DNA from: Treponema sp. Marseille-Q3903
GTDB lineage: Bacteria > Spirochaetota > Spirochaetia > Treponematales > Treponemataceae
Direction of reading: 5' to 3'
Length of the DNA stretch: 64,000 nucleotides
Assembly: GCF_014334335.1 (NCBI RefSeq)
Contig: NZ_JACSEU010000001.1
Coordinates: 1,488,001 to 1,552,000, forward strand
In this document: positions 44,926-54,988 of the stretch, piece after piece
How positions within the stretch are numbered: position 1 is the first letter of the stretch
Layout: each line of letters starts with the position of its first letter
Notes under the pieces: generated by a model
The model's database searches: none
What the model was told of the DNA's origin: nothing
The model's input: only the letters and a program-made list of their open reading frames with translations
Made by a program: the position numbers and the translations under genes

Positions 44926-46149
44926 TCAGAAATTGAAATTCAAATTGATGACAGTTAAATCGCTTGCGGAGAATTGATTTACAAGAGATTCAAATTTTAC
45001 GTTTACTTTTTTGCAGGCATCATCAAGATAAGAAAGATAGTATACACCAAGGTCTGTACCTTCCTGACCTTCCGGCAATTCACGATAAAAGTCAATCAAT
45101 GATTTTTTATTTGTATTTGAAGATTTAGCCGATTCGATATTTTCCTTTACTTCTTGGAATTCATCGTCTTTGTTGTAAAGCGTTATCGAAAGTCGTCCCT
45201 GTTTACCGATAGAAGATGAACCTCCTCCGAGTTTCCATGAGACAAAAACAAGCTCGTGTTTTCGCTGCAACTCCTGAACAATCTTTGCACGAACTTCAGG
45301 ATCAAAAATCAGAGAATCTATATCATCAATCCCGTGATACATGTTTCTCGCTTCTTTTCTGATATTTGTATTTTCATTGTTCAATGCGAGTTCCATGACC
45401 ATTACGGATATATATTCGGCAACTTTTGATTTATCCATGTAAGAGCTTAAAAGATTACGAATCGCAACATGCATCTCTGCTGCACCTTCATTTTTTGCAA
45501 ACAGAGTGATGATGTACCAGTTCATAAGACCAAGTCGATTCATAAACTTCTCTGACATAAGGATATAGATATTTTTTTCTTCTGATGAATAGTCTTTGTT
45601 TGTCATTATAGATTTCCAGATCGGGTCAAGAATCTGACGCCTTGTGTTTTGAATTATAGATTCTTTATTCATCAAGATTGTCCGAAGCTGACGCTCAGAC
45701 ATTTTTGTACGTTCATCGATGAGATGCGACGGATTAGCCCTGTTATGCTTTCGGACACAATTGCATTGAATCAATGCAGAATAGACATCGCGGTCAAATT
45801 GTTTGTAGAGCAACGAATAAACTATTACTTTAGAGAGATCCATAACTTCCTGCCGCGAAGAAACAAATTCGGACATGGAAATTTCAATTTTAGAAATGTA
45901 ATCCAAAAGAATCATGTTCTGAATAGATTGCGGAGAAAATTTCTCCATAGATATTCCATATTCTTCTACATTATCTGCTAAGCGGAAACGTAAGAGTTTT
46001 TTGTTATGACTTATAAAATTGGATGCGCCGTCTTCTGTCAGTATGACTTTTAGAGGAAGCTCTAACATGAATTTTTTATCAGATCCCATAATTCCCACAA
46101 ACAAAACTTTATCTAATTCATTTACGATTATACACGATAGGACTTGCAT
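44926..46149 (-). CDS. Conserved protein of unknown function (407 aa)
   Basis: No family was recognised. The protein is soluble, with long helical stretches and no membrane segment. N-terminal short hydrophobic patches (SCIIVNELDKVLFVGIMG) precede LELPLKVILTEDG. Because later ATGs at 46089 or 46068 could also serve, the start is uncertain. A TTGATT-16-TATATT promoter candidate at 46191-46164 (minus) would leave a leader of only a few bases for the 46149 start. The promoter overlaps the first codons of the divergent membrane-protein gene. It is the first gene of the trmB-ligA unit. Confidence 0.68.
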   Translation of the reverse strand: MQVLSCIIVNELDKVLFVGIMGSDKKFMLELPLKVILTEDGASNFISHNKKLLRFRLADNVEEYGISMEKFSPQSIQNMILLDYISKIEISMSEFVSSRQEVMDLSKVIVYSLLYKQFDRDVYSALIQCNCVRKHNRANPSHLIDERTKMSERQLRTILMNKESIIQNTRRQILDPIWKSIMTNKDYSSEEKNIYILMSEKFMNRLGLMNWYIITLFAKNEGAAEMHVAIRNLLSSYMDKSKVAEYISVMVMELALNNENTNIRKEARNMYHGIDDIDSLIFDPEVRAKIVQELQRKHELVFVSWKLGGGSSSIGKQGRLSITLYNKDDEFQEVKENIESAKSSNTNKKSLIDFYRELPEGQEGTDLGVYYLSYLDDACKKVNVKFESLVNQFSASDLTVINLNFNF

Positions 46150-46180
46150 TGTAAACTATAAAAAATATAAACTGTCGATT

Positions 46181-48112
46181 ATGGAAATCAAAAAGTTTTT
46201 ATCGTTTATAATACTATTGATTTTGCTACTCTTCTCTCCTATTTATGCAGAAGGAATTGACCTCTGTAATTCCGTTTTTTCATATCTTCAAAAAGAAAAT
46301 TTTAATCCGATAAAACAAAATCTTCTTTCAACAGGAGAGAATACTTTTCCATTCAACGTCGTTGTAAACATAGATTCAGAAGAAAAAGCATCGAAAAATC
46401 TTATCCTCGTATTTTTTCAGGAAGATGTTTTGGGCAATGAGAATGTTATTTCCGATTCAATCACAAAAATAAAAGATTCAAAATATCAGTTTAATATAAG
46501 CATTCTTTTTGCATACGGCGAAAAACAGATTTTTTCAAAACAAGGCATGATTTTTGGAACGCAAGTTTACCTTGACTCAATAAACACGAATGAAGATTTC
46601 TCTGCAATCATCATCGATTTGATGAACGAAGAAAATTCGGTGATAACAAAGAGCGATAAAATCACTTCACCTTCATGGCTTATTCAAAACTCGTACAATA
46701 TATACACAGAACAAAACATCGACAATAAAATTCCAACGGTAGTTTTGAGCCAGCTTTCAAGTTTTAATTTTTTTGAGGATAAATGTCTTTCACGATTTTT
46801 TGACAAAGAGATTCCTGCAATTAAATTAAATCTTAAAGACAGCAAAGAAAATAAAGAGATTGCTTTGAATGTTGTTTCACAATCTGTAGAAAAATATTCA
46901 CAAACGCCAGATAGAGTTTGGGATTTCCACTTTGTCATGATAAGGCTTTTCAGGCGATATTTTAAATTATCAGAGATAAACCTCCTCAGGATTATAATCG
47001 TAATTATTTTCTTTTGGGTATGTTTCATTTTTTTATTTTTTTTCGTAAACAGACATCTTCAAAAACGTGCGTGGAATACAATCAAAAATATCTGGTATCT
47101 TGTACCGGGAACTTTTTTTATAAGTATTTTTTCTTTCATTTTAGGAAAAGTTTTATATCAATTTTTCTTTTATAGCTCATCAGATATCGGGAAAATATTT
47201 ACGTTGCTTTCTGTACAATTGGTAACAGTTTTTTTCTTTATCTCCGCTTTTTACGCTTTGATTTTACTGTTGAATTACAAATATGAAGAAAAGTCTATTG
47301 ATTATCTGCTCGTATTCAGCTGTTTTATAAATCAGTCGTTGTTTATACTTTTTGATATTTCGCTCTGCCCGATTTTTATTGTTATATGTTTTTTTTCTAT
47401 TCTTGCAATTACATTAAAGGATAACTTTATCCACATAGTTATCTTTGCTTTAATGATGTTGCCGTTCTATCCTTATATAAGCACTTTGTTCTCTGACTGC
47501 GATATTTCTCTGCTTTCCAGATATGTATTCAGCAGCAAAACTACGTTTATAATTCTTCCTCTTGTTTTTTATCCTTCAATGCTTATATATTTTAGAATTT
47601 TAACTTCCCTGAAAATCTATTTTAACAATACAAGAAAAACAGTGATATCTGTTTCCGTATTTTTTGTGATTTTTACAATATTTACTGTTTCTTTTTTGAT
47701 TGTTCAGGCAAACACGTTCAGCGCAAAGCTAAAACCTCCTGTTCAAATCGCAATGAAAAATGATGCGAAAGATTTTATAATTCTTTCATACAGCGACAAA
47801 CAGATTTTTGACGATACAATCAGAACTATTTTTATAAATCTAAAAGACGATGTTGAAATGTGTGAAGTTCAGATTAAGACAGACAGGAACAACCCGATTC
47901 TCTATACAGACAATGATTACACAATCGCTTCAAACGGCTTTGTTGCATTTACAATACCGAACAATCCTCCCAAAAACATGTCATTCAGCTACGGAACAAC
48001 TAAGACACCATCTATAATTACAGTTTCTGTCATATACAAGTCTGGTGATTCTGAAAATCGAGAACAGAATTACAATCTCCAAAGCAAATCTATCACGACC
48101 GGAGCTTTTTGA
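46181..48112 (+). CDS. Multi-pass membrane protein with large extracytoplasmic N-domain
   Basis: From the ATG at 46181 this encodes 643 aa. A signal-like segment (LSFIILLILLLFSPIYAE) is followed by about 240 residues outside the membrane. Six to eight membrane helices start near residue 265 (NLLRIIIVIIFFWVCFIFLF), and a soluble C-terminal domain of about 110 residues ends the protein. No family was recognised. Its TGA overlaps the dinB ATG by one base. It may be a transport or assembly component for exported proteins, but nothing shows this directly. Confidence 0.75.
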   Translation: MEIKKFLSFIILLILLLFSPIYAEGIDLCNSVFSYLQKENFNPIKQNLLSTGENTFPFNVVVNIDSEEKASKNLILVFFQEDVLGNENVISDSITKIKDSKYQFNISILFAYGEKQIFSKQGMIFGTQVYLDSINTNEDFSAIIIDLMNEENSVITKSDKITSPSWLIQNSYNIYTEQNIDNKIPTVVLSQLSSFNFFEDKCLSRFFDKEIPAIKLNLKDSKENKEIALNVVSQSVEKYSQTPDRVWDFHFVMIRLFRRYFKLSEINLLRIIIVIIFFWVCFIFLFFFVNRHLQKRAWNTIKNIWYLVPGTFFISIFSFILGKVLYQFFFYSSSDIGKIFTLLSVQLVTVFFFISAFYALILLLNYKYEEKSIDYLLVFSCFINQSLFILFDISLCPIFIVICFFSILAITLKDNFIHIVIFALMMLPFYPYISTLFSDCDISLLSRYVFSSKTTFIILPLVFYPSMLIYFRILTSLKIYFNNTRKTVISVSVFFVIFTIFTVSFLIVQANTFSAKLKPPVQIAMKNDAKDFIILSYSDKQIFDDTIRTIFINLKDDVEMCEVQIKTDRNNPILYTDNDYTIASNGFVAFTIPNNPPKNMSFSYGTTKTPSIITVSVIYKSGDSENREQNYNLQSKSITTGAF

Positions 48113-51100
48113 TGGCAGAAGTTGAGCATTGGTATTTGCATGTCGACCTCGACGCTTTTTTTGCTTCTGTTGAACAACTTGATCATCCGGAATATAGAGG
48201 TAAACCGCTGATTGTTGGCGGCAAACCGGAAGACAGGCGGAGTGTTGTTTCAACGGCGTCTTACGAGGCGAGAAAATACGGTGTTCATTCTGCGATGCCG
48301 ACTTTTCAGGCTTACAAACTGTGTCCAAACGGGATATTTGTCCGTGTCAGGATGGAGCGCTATTCAGAGATGTCTTACAAAATCATGAATATCTTCCGCG
48401 ATTATTCTCCTGATGTAAAACAGATATCTATAGATGAAGCTTTTATAGATTTGACAGGTACTGAAAAATTGTTCGGACCACCGGAGAAAACCGCAATCGA
48501 CATAAAAACACGTGTAAAAAATGAGACAGGGCTGACAGTCTCCGTAGGTCTTGCGACAACAAAATATCTTGCAAAAATTGCATCAGGATTTTCGAAACCT
48601 GATGGATTTTATCACATTAAACGCGGAGATGAAAAAGCTTTTATTCTCAATCTTCCTCTGAACAAAGTTTGGGGGCTTGGGAAAAAATCTATTGAATTGA
48701 TTCATTCAAAGGGAATGAGGACGACTCGTGATATATACGAAAAAGATTACACAATACTTGAGTTTTTATTCGGGAAAAATATGGCAACATTTTTGTACAA
48801 TGTTGTGCGTGGGACTGAAACTTCATCTTTTGACAGGGAAACGAAAAATCACTCTATAAGTTCCGAAACTACTTTTCCTTACGACCTTACAGATGTCTAT
48901 TTAATCGAGACGGAACTCCTTGAACTCTCACAAAGTGTTTTTTTCAGGCTGATGAAGCATGAATCGTACTCGCCAACAGCTTTTGTAAAAATACGCTATG
49001 ACGATTTTTCGACATGCTCGATTCAAGAAACTTCTGACAGAAACATAATGACGCTCGATTCTTATTTTGAAATCGTAAAACGGCTGTTTGAAAAAAAATA
49101 CCAGATTGGACGAGGAATCAGACTTCTTGGCGTCGGATTTGAAAACGTCGTAAAAGATTCAAAACCTGAGCAGCAGGAACTTTTTCCAAACAATGACGAA
49201 AAAAAACATAAAGTTGAACAGGCAATCTTAAACCTTTCAAAAAAGCATCCTGAAATCAAAATCAGAAAAGCAAGGACTTTTAAATGCTTCTTTTTGTGTT
49301 TTTTGATTGGAATATCAGGCGGATTGAAGAACAATTTACAGTCTGAAGATTTTAAGGCTGAAAAAAAAGTTCAGGAAAATGGAGCCGGTGCTGCACTTCC
49401 CGACACTTTTTATACTCCGCAAACTTTTAAAGAAGCACCCGACTCTCTTTTTAATTGGGCAATCGATGATAAAAATAACGTAGATTTTTTAGTGCACGGA
49501 CATTGGAAAGGCGCATTTTTATACAGCATTGATTCTTCTTTCGGAGCCGGCACAAATTTTGTTATAGCTCCTTCATCCGCAGTTTTTAGACAAGATGTAG
49601 AACTCTACACATGGGCGATGTTGAACAATCGCTGGTATTTCGAATCGGATTTTGCAGATGAATTTACAAAAAATACGATTGCGATGGGATATATCGGAAA
49701 CGGTCTTGTAAAGTCGTTTAGAGTTTCAAACAGAGGAATTACAATGCCTTCAGGTTATTCTTCCGAAATGTTCGGATATTCATTAAAAGGTGGAAATAAT
49801 CAATCTCCGGGGATTTCTTTGAATATCGGCGGAACGGAAAACAGTTGGAAAGCAGATTTTTTAATCAGATACGATATGACATCGACTAAAAGCGCAACAT
49901 TTTATGGGATGAACAGCGTTTCAGATACAAAGCTCTCGCCTGCTGATTTTTTGTATGGAAATGAATTTTATTTTCCAAAAGAGTCGGAACAAGCCGTTTT
50001 TGACATACTCGATGTCTATGTAGAAAATAAATCAGGGACGTACTCCGACAATTACGGTAAAAAATACAAAAAACTATCTTCCGGAGAATACGCTGTTTTA
50101 GCAAAAAAACAAAGGCTTTTTATCTCTGAAAGAGCCGGCGGCGGAAAAAGCAAAGGAAAGATTCCTCAGATTTTGCTGACTTTCAAAAATGACGCAAATG
50201 TCTCAAAAATTATTTCCGATTCGGGAAGCTATTCAGATAATTCAAGTTTTTTAGGAAAGATTCAAAAAGCGTTTGACAGCTCCGGGAAAAATTACAGATT
50301 AGATGATTTTTCGTGTACGCAATCGTGCCAAATTGAAGGAAAGACAGCGCTTGTGATTCAAAGTTCAAAAGGATTTTGCCCGTACATTTTTTCAAGTTCT
50401 TACGATTGCGGACTAAAATCTGAGGGAGACATCTTTGTAATTTCTTCAAAAAACGAAAAAAAGCTTAATAATTTTTCAGCAAGCGTCGGAGACGAATCAT
50501 ATACATCGATTTTTGAAGATTTATTTAATGAAAAGCACATGTATGCAAAAATTGTAAATGACGAATCTTTGGAGAGTCATCCTTTTGTAAGATATGCGCC
50601 GGAGATATATTTAAATCTGGCGGAAAGCTCTGACATAAAAATCGTCGTGCGAAAATATCAGCCTGTAAAAAATATTCAAATTGCCACTTCCGCAGTTCCA
50701 AATTCGGTTTCTGTTTACATAAACGGAACGCTTGTGGCAGGTTGTTCATTCAATCAAGAAACAGGCGTTGTAGAGCTGCCAGTCTCAGTTTCTGCAACAG
50801 ATAAAATCTATATAACGTGGCAGGAAGATTCCTCAGATTTTTCAAGAGGAGCTTTGGCAACAGGGCTTGGGTTTAAGACATTTTTTACACCTTCTGTTTT
50901 GTTTGATGCTTCTTTTACTGCCAGATGGCCAATTTCTATAAACACAAAATATTCTTTACAAAATGACATGCATAAAGGTTTTGCGGCTTTTTCTTTTGGA
51001 ATATCTTTTGAAAAAAAAGGAATTGCAGGGGAACTAAAAATTTCTGAAAAATCTTCCGTTTCTGTAAATCAAGAAAATACGACAAAAGGACTTATTGTAA

Positions 51101-53769
51101 ATGCTCAAAAACAAAATGTTCCTCAAAAATATTATCCAAAAGGTTATAATTCATCTCAATCGCTCAGCTTTTCGTTAAAAAATTCAGGCGAAGAATCTTT
51201 TTTAGATATCAAGCTTCAAAACGGAGAGCTTTTGAAAAACAGTTCGGAAGTGGAAATCGAAATTACACCAAAAATTGAGTTCGGGACTGCGGTGGGAAAA
51301 CTGAAAGTTTTTCTGATTGTTGGTGTCGATGCTGCTGACGAAAGTTTTACAGTTTCTGAAAAGCTGCCAAAATGGGAATTGTCAAGGTTAGGATTAAATC
51401 TCACAGAAAACAAACCTCAGACGCTCAAAATTACGCTTTCAGATAAAGAGCGCTCACTTTTGACAGGTGTTTATGATGCGCGCCTTATTGTGAAAACAGA
51501 TGATGATTTTGACAGCACAATAGATAAAGCTGACGGAACAATTTCTTTTGTTTCCTATAAGCCGATTGTCCAAAACATTTTTACAGAGCACGACGAAAAT
51601 ATAAACGTAAGAGCAATTTCGAGATTATCCGAATTACAAATAAAAAAAACAATTGAAAAAAACTGTTCTACCCAAATAAACTGGAACATGGCAAGCTCTG
51701 TAAATAAAGAAGATTTAAGTCAAACAAAAATCAAAACAATTTCTTATTTTGAACAGCAAGATTTTTCATCGTATAAAACTGTCGAATTTAATTTTGCTTT
51801 AGAAGAGGCTTCTCCAGCGCTGACTTTTATACTTGATAATTATTCAGATGATTTTGAAGACAATTCTGAATATGCGCTTAAAGTTGAATTAAAATCGACA
51901 AAAAATCTCATAAAAAAAGACGGAGCGCTTACATATCATACGCTTCAAGTCAATCTAGATGACAGTGATGTTTTTGTTGACGGAACAAAACTCACTAAAG
52001 ATGAATTTTCTCTAAAAATCAATCGCGATAAAGTTCCGTCTCGCCAGATAATTTTGATAGACACATTCTCTGACGGAAATTTGATTAAAAACGGCTCATT
52101 TTATATCGATAACCTTTTGTTCACAAATTCTAAAGTTTATTTTTTGGGGCAAAATTACGCATCTCTTGAATACAAAAAAGATGGAACTTTTGTAAAAACC
52201 GGCGATTTTGAAATTTTTAAAGACGCATATTTTGATGTAAACTCATATCAGACAGCAGGGACATTAAAACATGAGGAATTTCAGCTCAACTCAAATGTAA
52301 AATGTGGCATAACTGTGACCGGAATAAAAATTTCAGCAGATGCTTCTTTTAACAAGGCTGAACTTTCAAACGCAGGATATTACATCAAATCTGAAAACGA
52401 ACGTTTTCGTTTTATGAAAGCCGGAGAGAGTTTTCGTTATCTGAAAAAAGAAAGTTTTTACAGCAAAAATGATGAAGTGAGTTTTGATTTTTCAAAATTG
52501 TCAATTCTCATTCCGTTAAAAATAGATTTTAAGTCGATTGCAGAAGATAACTCCATTACAAAAAAACAAAATACAGAAGGAATCATATCGTTAGATTTTA
52601 AAAATGATAGTCTTGGAATAAATTTTTTGTCAAAATTAAACGTCAATCAAAAGATAAAAAATGATAAGATTTTTGATTCTTTTTTAAAACTCAGCGGACT
52701 TCAGTTTTCTGCGGGTGAAAATACTGCAAATCATCGCGTGGTTGATTTTTCAACAACGATTTCTGGAGACTTCCCTTTTGCCCGGTTCAAACCTGTTTTG
52801 GAATACGGTTTAAATGGAACTTATAACTTTGCAAAAGAGGCTGCAATCAAAGATAATTCAAAGATTTATCTGAAATTGCCATTTTTGTTTGACTCTCAAA
52901 GTTTTGAATTTTCTATTCTAAGAAATGCCGGTGGAAAAACGGAAGTCAATCCCGGCGGTTCATATATTTTTGACGGAAATTGCGTTTTAAAAAAGCAAAT
53001 TGAAAGAAAGGCGCTTTACGATTCTATTCCTTTTTTCGAACTATTTGATTTATCGTTGAAAGATAGAGTCTTTGCAGATTATTCAACAAAATATCAGTTT
53101 TTATATAAACGAAAAATATTCAATTCGTATGCAGACATTTTTGTTCCATCATCCGCATCGCTTTCTGTAATTAGAGATGTCAAAAATATTTCATCTTCAT
53201 CAAGCACATATCAGTTTAAAATCGTGCTCTCAAATACATCTGTAAACAATTTCGGTTTGGACAGCATAAACAAAACATTTAAATGGTTTAAGCAGGATGA
53301 GTTGTTTTCGAGCATAACCGGAATTATAAAAATCCCGGAAGATAAAATTGAAAACACAACTTATCAGATAACAGTGTATTCGCAGCTTTTTTTGATGATT
53401 ACAGATAAATCGAATCTTCTTTCTTCTTTTGATGCCGCTTTTGAAACAGATGGAAACTTTTCGAGTCACGCAACTTTAGTTTATAAAAGACCATCAAAAT
53501 CGAATATAATATCTGCAATCGCAGCTTTATTTACAACGCAAGAACAGCAGAAAAATTTTAAAATCACCAGAAATGAAACGATGAATCTTGAAGCAAAAAC
53601 TGTGTCATCACGCTTTAGCGGAAAACTTTCATATCTACATTCAACAGACTTGAGTTTTTTGGAATACTTTACAGTTTCGATTGGAATTGGAGGGAGTTAC
53701 AATTATATTCAGGGGAAAGCACATCGGATTGGATTAGATTTTTCTATTGGGGCAAAAGCCGAGTTTTAA
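48112..53769 (+). CDS. dinB: DNA polymerase IV (DinB) read through into a giant exported protein
   Basis: As read, one 1885-aa frame. Residues 1 to about 388 are a complete Y-family polymerase: HVDLDAFFASVEQLDHPEYR, GKPLIVGGK, the catalytic ISIDEAFIDLTG and GLATTKYLAKIASGFSKPDG. The little-finger domain follows and the usual end is reached at IRKARTF. DinB copies damaged DNA. The frame then continues for about 1,495 residues of unrelated, beta-rich, exported-type protein. A run of six T at 49299-49304 with one T fewer would stop dinB at once and open a separate gene at 49284. I therefore think two genes are fused by one extra base. Confidence 0.85.
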   Translation: MAEVEHWYLHVDLDAFFASVEQLDHPEYRGKPLIVGGKPEDRRSVVSTASYEARKYGVHSAMPTFQAYKLCPNGIFVRVRMERYSEMSYKIMNIFRDYSPDVKQISIDEAFIDLTGTEKLFGPPEKTAIDIKTRVKNETGLTVSVGLATTKYLAKIASGFSKPDGFYHIKRGDEKAFILNLPLNKVWGLGKKSIELIHSKGMRTTRDIYEKDYTILEFLFGKNMATFLYNVVRGTETSSFDRETKNHSISSETTFPYDLTDVYLIETELLELSQSVFFRLMKHESYSPTAFVKIRYDDFSTCSIQETSDRNIMTLDSYFEIVKRLFEKKYQIGRGIRLLGVGFENVVKDSKPEQQELFPNNDEKKHKVEQAILNLSKKHPEIKIRKARTFKCFFLCFLIGISGGLKNNLQSEDFKAEKKVQENGAGAALPDTFYTPQTFKEAPDSLFNWAIDDKNNVDFLVHGHWKGAFLYSIDSSFGAGTNFVIAPSSAVFRQDVELYTWAMLNNRWYFESDFADEFTKNTIAMGYIGNGLVKSFRVSNRGITMPSGYSSEMFGYSLKGGNNQSPGISLNIGGTENSWKADFLIRYDMTSTKSATFYGMNSVSDTKLSPADFLYGNEFYFPKESEQAVFDILDVYVENKSGTYSDNYGKKYKKLSSGEYAVLAKKQRLFISERAGGGKSKGKIPQILLTFKNDANVSKIISDSGSYSDNSSFLGKIQKAFDSSGKNYRLDDFSCTQSCQIEGKTALVIQSSKGFCPYIFSSSYDCGLKSEGDIFVISSKNEKKLNNFSASVGDESYTSIFEDLFNEKHMYAKIVNDESLESHPFVRYAPEIYLNLAESSDIKIVVRKYQPVKNIQIATSAVPNSVSVYINGTLVAGCSFNQETGVVELPVSVSATDKIYITWQEDSSDFSRGALATGLGFKTFFTPSVLFDASFTARWPISINTKYSLQNDMHKGFAAFSFGISFEKKGIAGELKISEKSSVSVNQENTTKGLIVNAQKQNVPQKYYPKGYNSSQSLSFSLKNSGEESFLDIKLQNGELLKNSSEVEIEITPKIEFGTAVGKLKVFLIVGVDAADESFTVSEKLPKWELSRLGLNLTENKPQTLKITLSDKERSLLTGVYDARLIVKTDDDFDSTIDKADGTISFVSYKPIVQNIFTEHDENINVRAISRLSELQIKKTIEKNCSTQINWNMASSVNKEDLSQTKIKTISYFEQQDFSSYKTVEFNFALEEASPALTFILDNYSDDFEDNSEYALKVELKSTKNLIKKDGALTYHTLQVNLDDSDVFVDGTKLTKDEFSLKINRDKVPSRQIILIDTFSDGNLIKNGSFYIDNLLFTNSKVYFLGQNYASLEYKKDGTFVKTGDFEIFKDAYFDVNSYQTAGTLKHEEFQLNSNVKCGITVTGIKISADASFNKAELSNAGYYIKSENERFRFMKAGESFRYLKKESFYSKNDEVSFDFSKLSILIPLKIDFKSIAEDNSITKKQNTEGIISLDFKNDSLGINFLSKLNVNQKIKNDKIFDSFLKLSGLQFSAGENTANHRVVDFSTTISGDFPFARFKPVLEYGLNGTYNFAKEAAIKDNSKIYLKLPFLFDSQSFEFSILRNAGGKTEVNPGGSYIFDGNCVLKKQIERKALYDSIPFFELFDLSLKDRVFADYSTKYQFLYKRKIFNSYADIFVPSSASLSVIRDVKNISSSSSTYQFKIVLSNTSVNNFGLDSINKTFKWFKQDELFSSITGIIKIPEDKIENTTYQITVYSQLFLMITDKSNLLSSFDAAFETDGNFSSHATLVYKRPSKSNIISAIAALFTTQEQQKNFKITRNETMNLEAKTVSSRFSGKLSYLHSTDLSFLEYFTVSIGIGGSYNYIQGKAHRIGLDFSIGAKAEF
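49284..53769 (+). CDS. Probable separate gene: very large outer-membrane or surface protein
   Basis: This alternative reading assumes one T fewer in the run at 49299-49304. An ATG at 49284 has AAGGA seven bases upstream and would encode MLLFVFLIGISGGLKNN, a short signal-like start. About 1,490 residues then follow in the frame now joined to dinB. The body is rich in Ser, Lys, Phe and Asn with alternating beta patterns. It has an early folded segment (YTWAMLNNRWYFESDFADEF, NIGGTENSWKADFLIRYD) and ends SIGAKAEF, a terminal Phe typical of outer-membrane beta-barrels. No family was recognised. If the base is real, this part could be made only as a DinB fusion or by internal initiation. Confidence 0.6.
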
Positions 53770-53812: not shown

Positions 53813-54988
53813 ATGACTTATTTAGCAAAAATCGGAGAACTCACTCTTAAAGGGTCAAATATCAAGGAATTTGAAAATCTTTTAAAACACAATGCTGCAA
53901 AATACATTGAAGGGCTTGGATGCAATATAACTTTGCGTGCCGGACGTCTTTACATCGACTGCGATGAGTCTGCTGCACAGAGAGTTGAGTTTATGCTCTC
54001 TCATCTGATTGGTATTACGGGATGGGCAAAAGCTGCTGTGTGCGAAAAAACTATTGAAGATATAAACCGCACTGTATTTGAAATCGCTAAAAAAGAAGCT
54101 GAACGCGGCTGCAAAACTTTTAAAATCGATGCACGTCGTTCAGATAAAAATTTTCCGCTCAATTCTTATCAGATTTGCTGTGAAGCGGCTGGAGATGTTG
54201 AAGCTATTATGAAAGTCGATGTTCACAAACCTGACACAATTTTGTATGTTGAAGTTCGTGAACGCGTATTTGTTTTTGCCGACTCAAATATCGGTTGCAG
54301 AGGGCTTCCTGTCGGGTCAAGCGGAAAAGGACTTTTGCTGCTCTCTGGCGGTCTTGATTCACCTGTCGCAGGTTACAGAATGCTCCGCCGCGGAATGAAG
54401 ATTGAATGCTGCTATTTTCATTCTTATCCTTATACTTCAGAAGAAGCAAAACAAAAAGTAGTCGATTTGGCTCAAAAACTCGCATATTACGGAATTACGA
54501 CATATCTAAACGTAATCCCGTTCACAGAAGTTCAGATGAGGATTAAAGAAAGAGCTCCAGACAGCTGGTCAACTTTGATGCTGCGAGTCTGCATGATGAA
54601 GCTTGCAAATCGTCTTGCGCGCAGATGCAACGCAAAATGCATAATCACTGGTGAAAGCGTCGGGCAGGTTGCAAGTCAGACGATTGAAAACATGACAGTT
54701 ACAGAACATTTTGCAGAATTTCCCCTTCTCCGTCCGCTGTGCGGCATGGATAAAGAAGAGATAATAAGGGATTCATATTTTATCGGCACTTATGATATAT
54801 CAATTTTACCATACGAAGACTGCTGTGTGCTTTTCAGCCCGCGCCATCCTGTTTTGCGTGCGACATCTGAAGAGGCAGAAAAAATATACAGCTCTCTCGA
54901 AGTTGAGCAATTGATAGATAAAGCTTACAAAGAACGCGAAATAATCAAACTCAGCGTATACTGCGCGCCAACAAAAAAAACTGTGTAG
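53813..54988 (+). CDS. thiI: tRNA 4-thiouridine synthase ThiI (no rhodanese domain)
   Basis: This 391-aa protein has an N-terminal ferredoxin-like and THUMP region (LAKIGELTLKGSNIKEFE, then EVRERVFVFAD). The PP-loop ATPase domain follows with SGGLDSPVAGYRML (residues 178 onward), and then TGESVGQVASQT and LPYEDCCVLFSPRHPVLRA. It adds sulfur to U8 of tRNA, and in some bacteria also supplies thiazole synthesis. It lacks the C-terminal rhodanese domain of E. coli ThiI, as in Bacillus. The conserved N-terminus fixes the ATG start right behind the promoter. It is followed after 15 bases by the glycosylase gene. Confidence 0.95.
   Translation: MTYLAKIGELTLKGSNIKEFENLLKHNAAKYIEGLGCNITLRAGRLYIDCDESAAQRVEFMLSHLIGITGWAKAAVCEKTIEDINRTVFEIAKKEAERGCKTFKIDARRSDKNFPLNSYQICCEAAGDVEAIMKVDVHKPDTILYVEVRERVFVFADSNIGCRGLPVGSSGKGLLLLSGGLDSPVAGYRMLRRGMKIECCYFHSYPYTSEEAKQKVVDLAQKLAYYGITTYLNVIPFTEVQMRIKERAPDSWSTLMLRVCMMKLANRLARRCNAKCIITGESVGQVASQTIENMTVTEHFAEFPLLRPLCGMDKEEIIRDSYFIGTYDISILPYEDCCVLFSPRHPVLRATSEEAEKIYSSLEVEQLIDKAYKEREIIKLSVYCAPTKKTV

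Follow-up and report, generated by a model that had tools for sequence, protein, structure and literature searches.

A DinB polymerase and a giant exported-looking protein joined in one conserved open frame in Treponema

In Treponema sp. Marseille-Q3903 the frame that encodes the repair polymerase DinB does not stop where DinB ends but runs on, through a signal-peptide-like segment, into a giant exported-looking protein for which a SprA-like fold is predicted. Sequence comparison across the genus and its neighbours indicates that this fusion is old and conserved, and is not a sequencing slip. The gene likely gives rise to one precursor composed of DinB, an internal signal peptide and a SprA-like barrel, of which the barrel would be exported and DinB left inside. 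The frame lies in a 64,000-nucleotide stretch of that genome, referred to here as the window (NZ_JACSEU010000001.1, positions 1,488,001 to 1,552,000), and positions are those of the window unless a locus or contig is named.

One frame, two proteins

An earlier note on this DNA had described an open frame joining the two parts, and this frame is present at 48109/48112-53769 on the forward strand. It encodes 1,885 residues from the ATG at 48112, has its stop at 53767-53769 and ends in Phe, and a frame check finds no stop between DinB (Pol IV) and the ~1,480 residues of exported-looking protein that follow it. The features of the region are:

46019..48112, forward strand: upstream open frame, the TGA of which shares one base with the dinB ATG (TGATG)
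48112..49275, forward strand: DinB / DNA polymerase IV part, residues 1-388 (Pfam, NCBIfam, alignment)
49272..49286, forward strand: AAGGA with an out-of-frame ATG, a pair present in 2/57 fused genes
49276..49344, forward strand: junction, residues ~389-411, signal-peptide-like (sequence comparison)
49345..53766, forward strand: SprA-like giant barrel protein, residues ~412-1885 (matches; fold predicted on the relative L165)
51064..52161, forward strand: 366-residue insert (985-1350) predicted to form beta-sandwiches; weakly CBM11-like
53813..54988, forward strand: downstream gene (ORF list), presumably ThiI-like

Pfam and NCBIfam scans of the upstream frame (from 46181) were without match, and a scan for promoters and terminators stayed near shuffle levels and was uninformative.

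The complete DinB that the earlier note had placed up to about codon 388 is borne out by the Pfam domains IMS (PF00817, residues 12-159, 182.9 bits) and IMS_C (PF11799, residues 248-358, 69.3 bits) and by the NCBIfam model of DNA polymerase IV (NF002677), for which the score of 328 bits passes the cut-off of 256. Judged by their motifs, the active sites of the fused DinBs are intact: the metal-binding acidic motif DAFFAS occurs in 57/57 fused proteins of the genus, and a second, stricter metal-site pattern in 50/57, with S-x-DEA still present in the seven exceptions. The DinB part in the window also contains QQELF at residues 354-358, which we take to be a beta-clamp-like motif, and has the tail ..KKHPEIKIRKAR. 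Its own genome holds a single match to the Y-family model PF00817, so that no Y-family polymerase besides the fused DinB is detected there. In its domains, its NCBIfam score and its active-site motifs the protein resembles DNA polymerase IV (DinB), from which it differs in that its frame runs on into an export signal and then into a barrel protein.

What, then, is the giant? The description of this half as beta-rich, exported-looking and ending in Phe holds. Pfam scans of the giants were empty, and a profile of the giant found no match among PDB chains. The fold, which was predicted on L165, a naturally shorter relative, and not on the longer copy in the window, matches SprA over its whole length (PDB 8gl6, 8gl8, 6h3i), with 885 of 1,129 residues aligned. 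Generic barrels reach Z values close to that of SprA (OprC 14.4, CymA 13.6), and it is the aligned length, not Z, that distinguishes SprA. On this model the giant is a SprA-like beta-barrel, probably of the outer membrane. A SprA_N (PF14349) profile gave no match in the own genome, and the controls gave none either.

The likeness to SprA (Sov), the outer-membrane translocon of the type IX secretion system, lies in the whole-length predicted barrel fold and also in the company kept, since SprA is found with PorV and the Treponema giant co-occurs with the PorV-like UPF0164. Unlike SprA, the giant belongs to Spirochaetota and not Bacteroidota, gives no sequence match to SprA in profile searches, is shorter, and is fused to DinB or encoded in overlap with dinB. 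Nearly the whole insert at residues 985-1350 is missing from L165, and the T. bryantii group has it in shortened form. Foldseek ranks 1-16 for the insert are long alignments with a TM of ~0.2; CBM11 comes in at rank 17, SprA at rank 33, and the identity of the insert is accordingly loose. A NusA-like match within it scores 19 bits where the cut-off is 253, and is taken as chance.

Distribution and ancestry of the fusion

The genus was sampled with 98 genomes, from which 90 loci were fetched in addition to the window. The DinB part is matched in 95 of these genomes and the giant part in 64; both are found in 62, and in 57 of the 62, window included, they share one open frame. The loci sort into 57 that are fused, 32 with an unfused dinB and 2 with a giant but no dinB. 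In the other nine genomes dinB is cut by contig ends (G042, G053, G090) or has no close orthologue; G012, G025 and G033 give only weak DinB matches, and G013, G037 and G061 none. DinB identity within the genus is 53-80%, and 27 of the 32 unfused dinB loci come from genomes in which no giant was detected.

Five genomes are unfused despite having both parts. G002 has an N at the junction, the two genes are convergent in G041, and in G067 and G095 they lie on different contigs. The fifth, G028 (T. zioleckii kT3; L167 / L097), has a frameshift inside the DinB tail that leaves the giant in another frame, through either draft error or a real split. Among named records 63 of 79 loci are fused, including those of three T. 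bryantii strains, T. porcinum and T. ruminis (a complete genome), although many of these records overlap the 98-genome set and the two counts are not independent; the named Treponema sp. JC4 and C6A8 are fused too.

Some copies depart from the common form. The fused frame of L182 ends after 803 residues while the giant match goes on, indicating an interrupted copy. In L094 (G097:C216) the frame runs, after ~320 giant residues, into what by eye is a GH25-lysozyme-like start before the contig ends, and the contig is probably chimeric. L139 (Treponema sp. RGIG3210) has its two genes unfused, overlapping by ATGA, within the fused genus, where the ancestral state has been either retained or re-evolved.

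In the family as a whole, a giant of this kind is present in 13 of the 20 genera sampled. DinB was searched for in 30 family genomes, 28 of which matched, and a shared frame was judged by equal frame length in the giant and DinB searches. Fused frames occur on this basis in eight further genera (g2, g4, g8, g9, g10, g12, g17, in which it is cut by a contig end, and g19), and two adjacent genes in g3, g7 and g15. Fifteen of 18 unfused adjacent pairs overlap by four bases (ATGA or TTGA), two by one base (L226 being counted here by its TGATG) and one not at all. In the DinB tree g3 forms the outgroup, g15 branches off next, and all fused rows fall within a clade of 78 rows (SH-aLRT 99), inside which g7 and unfused g1 rows are also found. 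Read from these arrangements, the ancestral state is two genes, mostly overlapping by four bases, as kept in the deeper branches. The two overlapping genes proposed in the earlier note are thus upheld as the original state by the outgroup genera, and set aside as the present one by the single frame of the genus. The outgroup arrangement is that of translationally coupled, 4-base-overlapping gene pairs, from which the fused genes differ in having lost the stop and, mostly, the separate start.

The most economical history is a single fusion that followed the split of g15, with repeated losses later, usually of the whole giant. The fusion would have arisen, probably once, when the overlapping dinB and sprA-like genes came to share a frame, and its later losses, mostly along with the giant, would have left stand-alone dinB. 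The DinB tree is a quick one in which forks among genera are mostly open, and the starred branches require four or more state changes; one origin is therefore the most economical reading rather than a proven one. The stand-alone giants of g15, which lie beside dinB mostly with 4-base overlaps, have only ~1,140 residues and leave the middle of the model unmatched. One g15 genome, G151, has its giant spread over two open frames of 817 and 368 residues (C1:1656717-1660015), unlike the other five g15 genomes listed.

The junction and the fate of the precursor

At the junction in the window a basic tail, KIRKARTFK, is followed by the hydrophobic CFFLCFLIGISGG (49285-49323) and then by a GLKNNLQS-like end. 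Stand-alone DinBs of the genus mostly have no more than ~30 residues beyond the ..KAR motif, and in the fused DinBs this motif leads into the hydrophobic stretch, a signal-like segment that separates two proteins which also exist independently. In L066 (G058) a proline-rich linker of ~80 residues (residues ~388-470) connects DinB to the signal with one frame kept. After the hydrophobic core x-x-A-[QED] occurs in 41 of the 57 fused proteins against 19.9 expected by shuffling, and the looser [AVSTGLIC]-x-A in 50 against 46.2, which is hardly above shuffle level. The window copy has neither pattern, and its A-x-A cleavage motif is weak. Whole-codon indels at the junction were left out of account, being a product of the protein alignment itself, and many of the synonymous distances approach saturation.

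A junction of this kind suggests that the cell probably cuts the fused protein in two. Directed by the hydrophobic segment, the C-terminal 1,480 residues would pass through Sec, with signal peptidase I cutting near a small-x-Ala/Ser site, and the barrel would cross the periplasm to the outer membrane, probably partnered by the PorV-like UPF0164. DinB would remain cytoplasmic, with a short hydrophobic C-terminal tail tethering it to the inner membrane until that tail is degraded. A comparable precursor is the fbcH cytochrome b/c1 preprotein of Bradyrhizobium, a bacterial fusion that is divided at an internal signal sequence. Both products of fbcH belong to one complex, whereas the repair polymerase and the barrel protein here have no obvious joint function.

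Could the giant be made mostly from an internal in-frame start within the single frame, the long fusion protein being minor or absent? Unfused relatives do have a separate start for the giant, and in 12 of the 57 fused genes an ATG lies in frame within the 40 codons that precede the hydrophobic core. However, 26 of the 57, the window among them, have no in-frame ATG, GTG or TTG in those codons, and a start codon with a Shine-Dalgarno (SD) core is found there in none of the 57, compared with 11 of 18 unfused giants. A start that needs no SD, or a rare one (ATT, CTG), may still be used; the other 7 of the 18 unfused giants likewise have no SD core. As a conserved mechanism, internal initiation is unsupported by this survey, and we regard it as unlikely to be the main source of the giant.

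A cytoplasmic domain before a single hydrophobic segment and an exported-looking domain after it are also what an uncleaved signal anchor would present, in which case DinB would stay covalently joined and the protein would span from the inner to the outer membrane. The weak cleavage motif of the window copy fits such an anchor; against it stand the enrichment of the cleavage-site-like x-x-A-[QED] in the relatives and the ordinary signal peptides with which, by eye, the unfused giants of the outgroup start, making it a rather improbable outcome.

The features that the earlier note picked out are present: AAGGA at 49272-49276, an out-of-frame ATG at 49284 and a run of six T at 49299-49304. However, such an SD core and out-of-frame ATG near the junction occur in 2 of the 57 fused genes, and the pair is probably coincidental. 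A T6 run near the junction is found in 17, and its combination with the pair in the window alone. That an extra T, through sequencing or assembly error, joins two separate genes in this genome, as was proposed from this combination, is hardly credible even though the outgroups do carry two overlapping genes, since the comparison with related treponemes that the earlier note itself named as a refuting check finds the same single frame in diverged relatives, among them cultured strains sequenced separately and one complete genome, as well as in other genera.

A PorV-like partner and the meaning of the fusion

A solved complex contains SprA together with PorV, according to its PDB title. The own genome encodes one UPF0164 protein (L249:7044-8417; C1:1762043-1763416), which the PorV family model NF033709 matches from end to end, although the 72-73 bits fall short of its cut-off of 90. 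Treponeme UPF0164 proteins are PorV/PorQ-like over their whole length and have a TPR-like C-terminus. UPF0164 is present in 65 of the 98 genus genomes; it occurs together with the giant in 62, and 31 have neither. Five are discordant, with a giant alone in G033 and G088 and UPF0164 alone in G006, G025 and G061 (Fisher p 9e-20, overstated as the genomes are related). In a draw of 145 family genomes each was found in 79; counted by hand, both occur in 73, giant only in 6, UPF0164 only in 6 and neither in 60.

Four complete genomes (G141, G161, G180, G182; ~99% complete) have UPF0164 but no giant, and a search of their dinB loci (L242-L245) for a diverged giant left the giant query unmatched within ~1.5 kb on each side; the link between giant and UPF0164 is thus strong but not absolute. 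G117, a 1.1 Mb genome of another genus, has five UPF0164 matches with neither a giant nor a DinB match, so UPF0164 has other roles too. A secreted-looking protein of 2,070 residues in the own genome (L248:927-7139) has a C-terminal FlgD_ig domain with a weak resemblance to a T9SS sorting domain; FlgD_ig fits it better than the sorting-domain model does (24.7 bits for the latter in six-frame translation, 18 as protein, cut-off 23).

The T9SS has been reported from 60 of 97 genomes of Bacteroidetes, with no occurrence in any other clade (PMC4793230). The likeness in treponemes consists of the SprA-like predicted barrel and the PorV-like UPF0164 alone, and membership of the T9SS is not claimed. 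Tentatively, treponemes might possess a reduced type-IX-like translocon of SprA-like barrel and UPF0164, with the barrel synthesised as the C-terminal portion of a precursor that begins with DinB; there would then be one membrane-tethered, error-prone polymerase per exported barrel, and export and mutagenic synthesis would be locked one-to-one.

The titles and abstract openings of the openly licensed PMC papers covered contain no report of a DinB-giant fusion or of a spirochaete SprA, and excerpts of a 2026 survey of bacterial polymerases mention Treponema only for DnaQ (PMC12926913). For annotators there is a caution that such frames should not be 'corrected'. The fusion makes testable the function of an internal signal peptide after a 390-residue cytosolic enzyme, the tethering of DinB to the membrane, and a translocon of the SprA/PorV type outside Bacteroidota. 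A polymerase and a barrel protein destined for different compartments have been kept as one frame across many genera, which suggests that overlapping genes can fuse, and remain fused, without obvious functional kinship.
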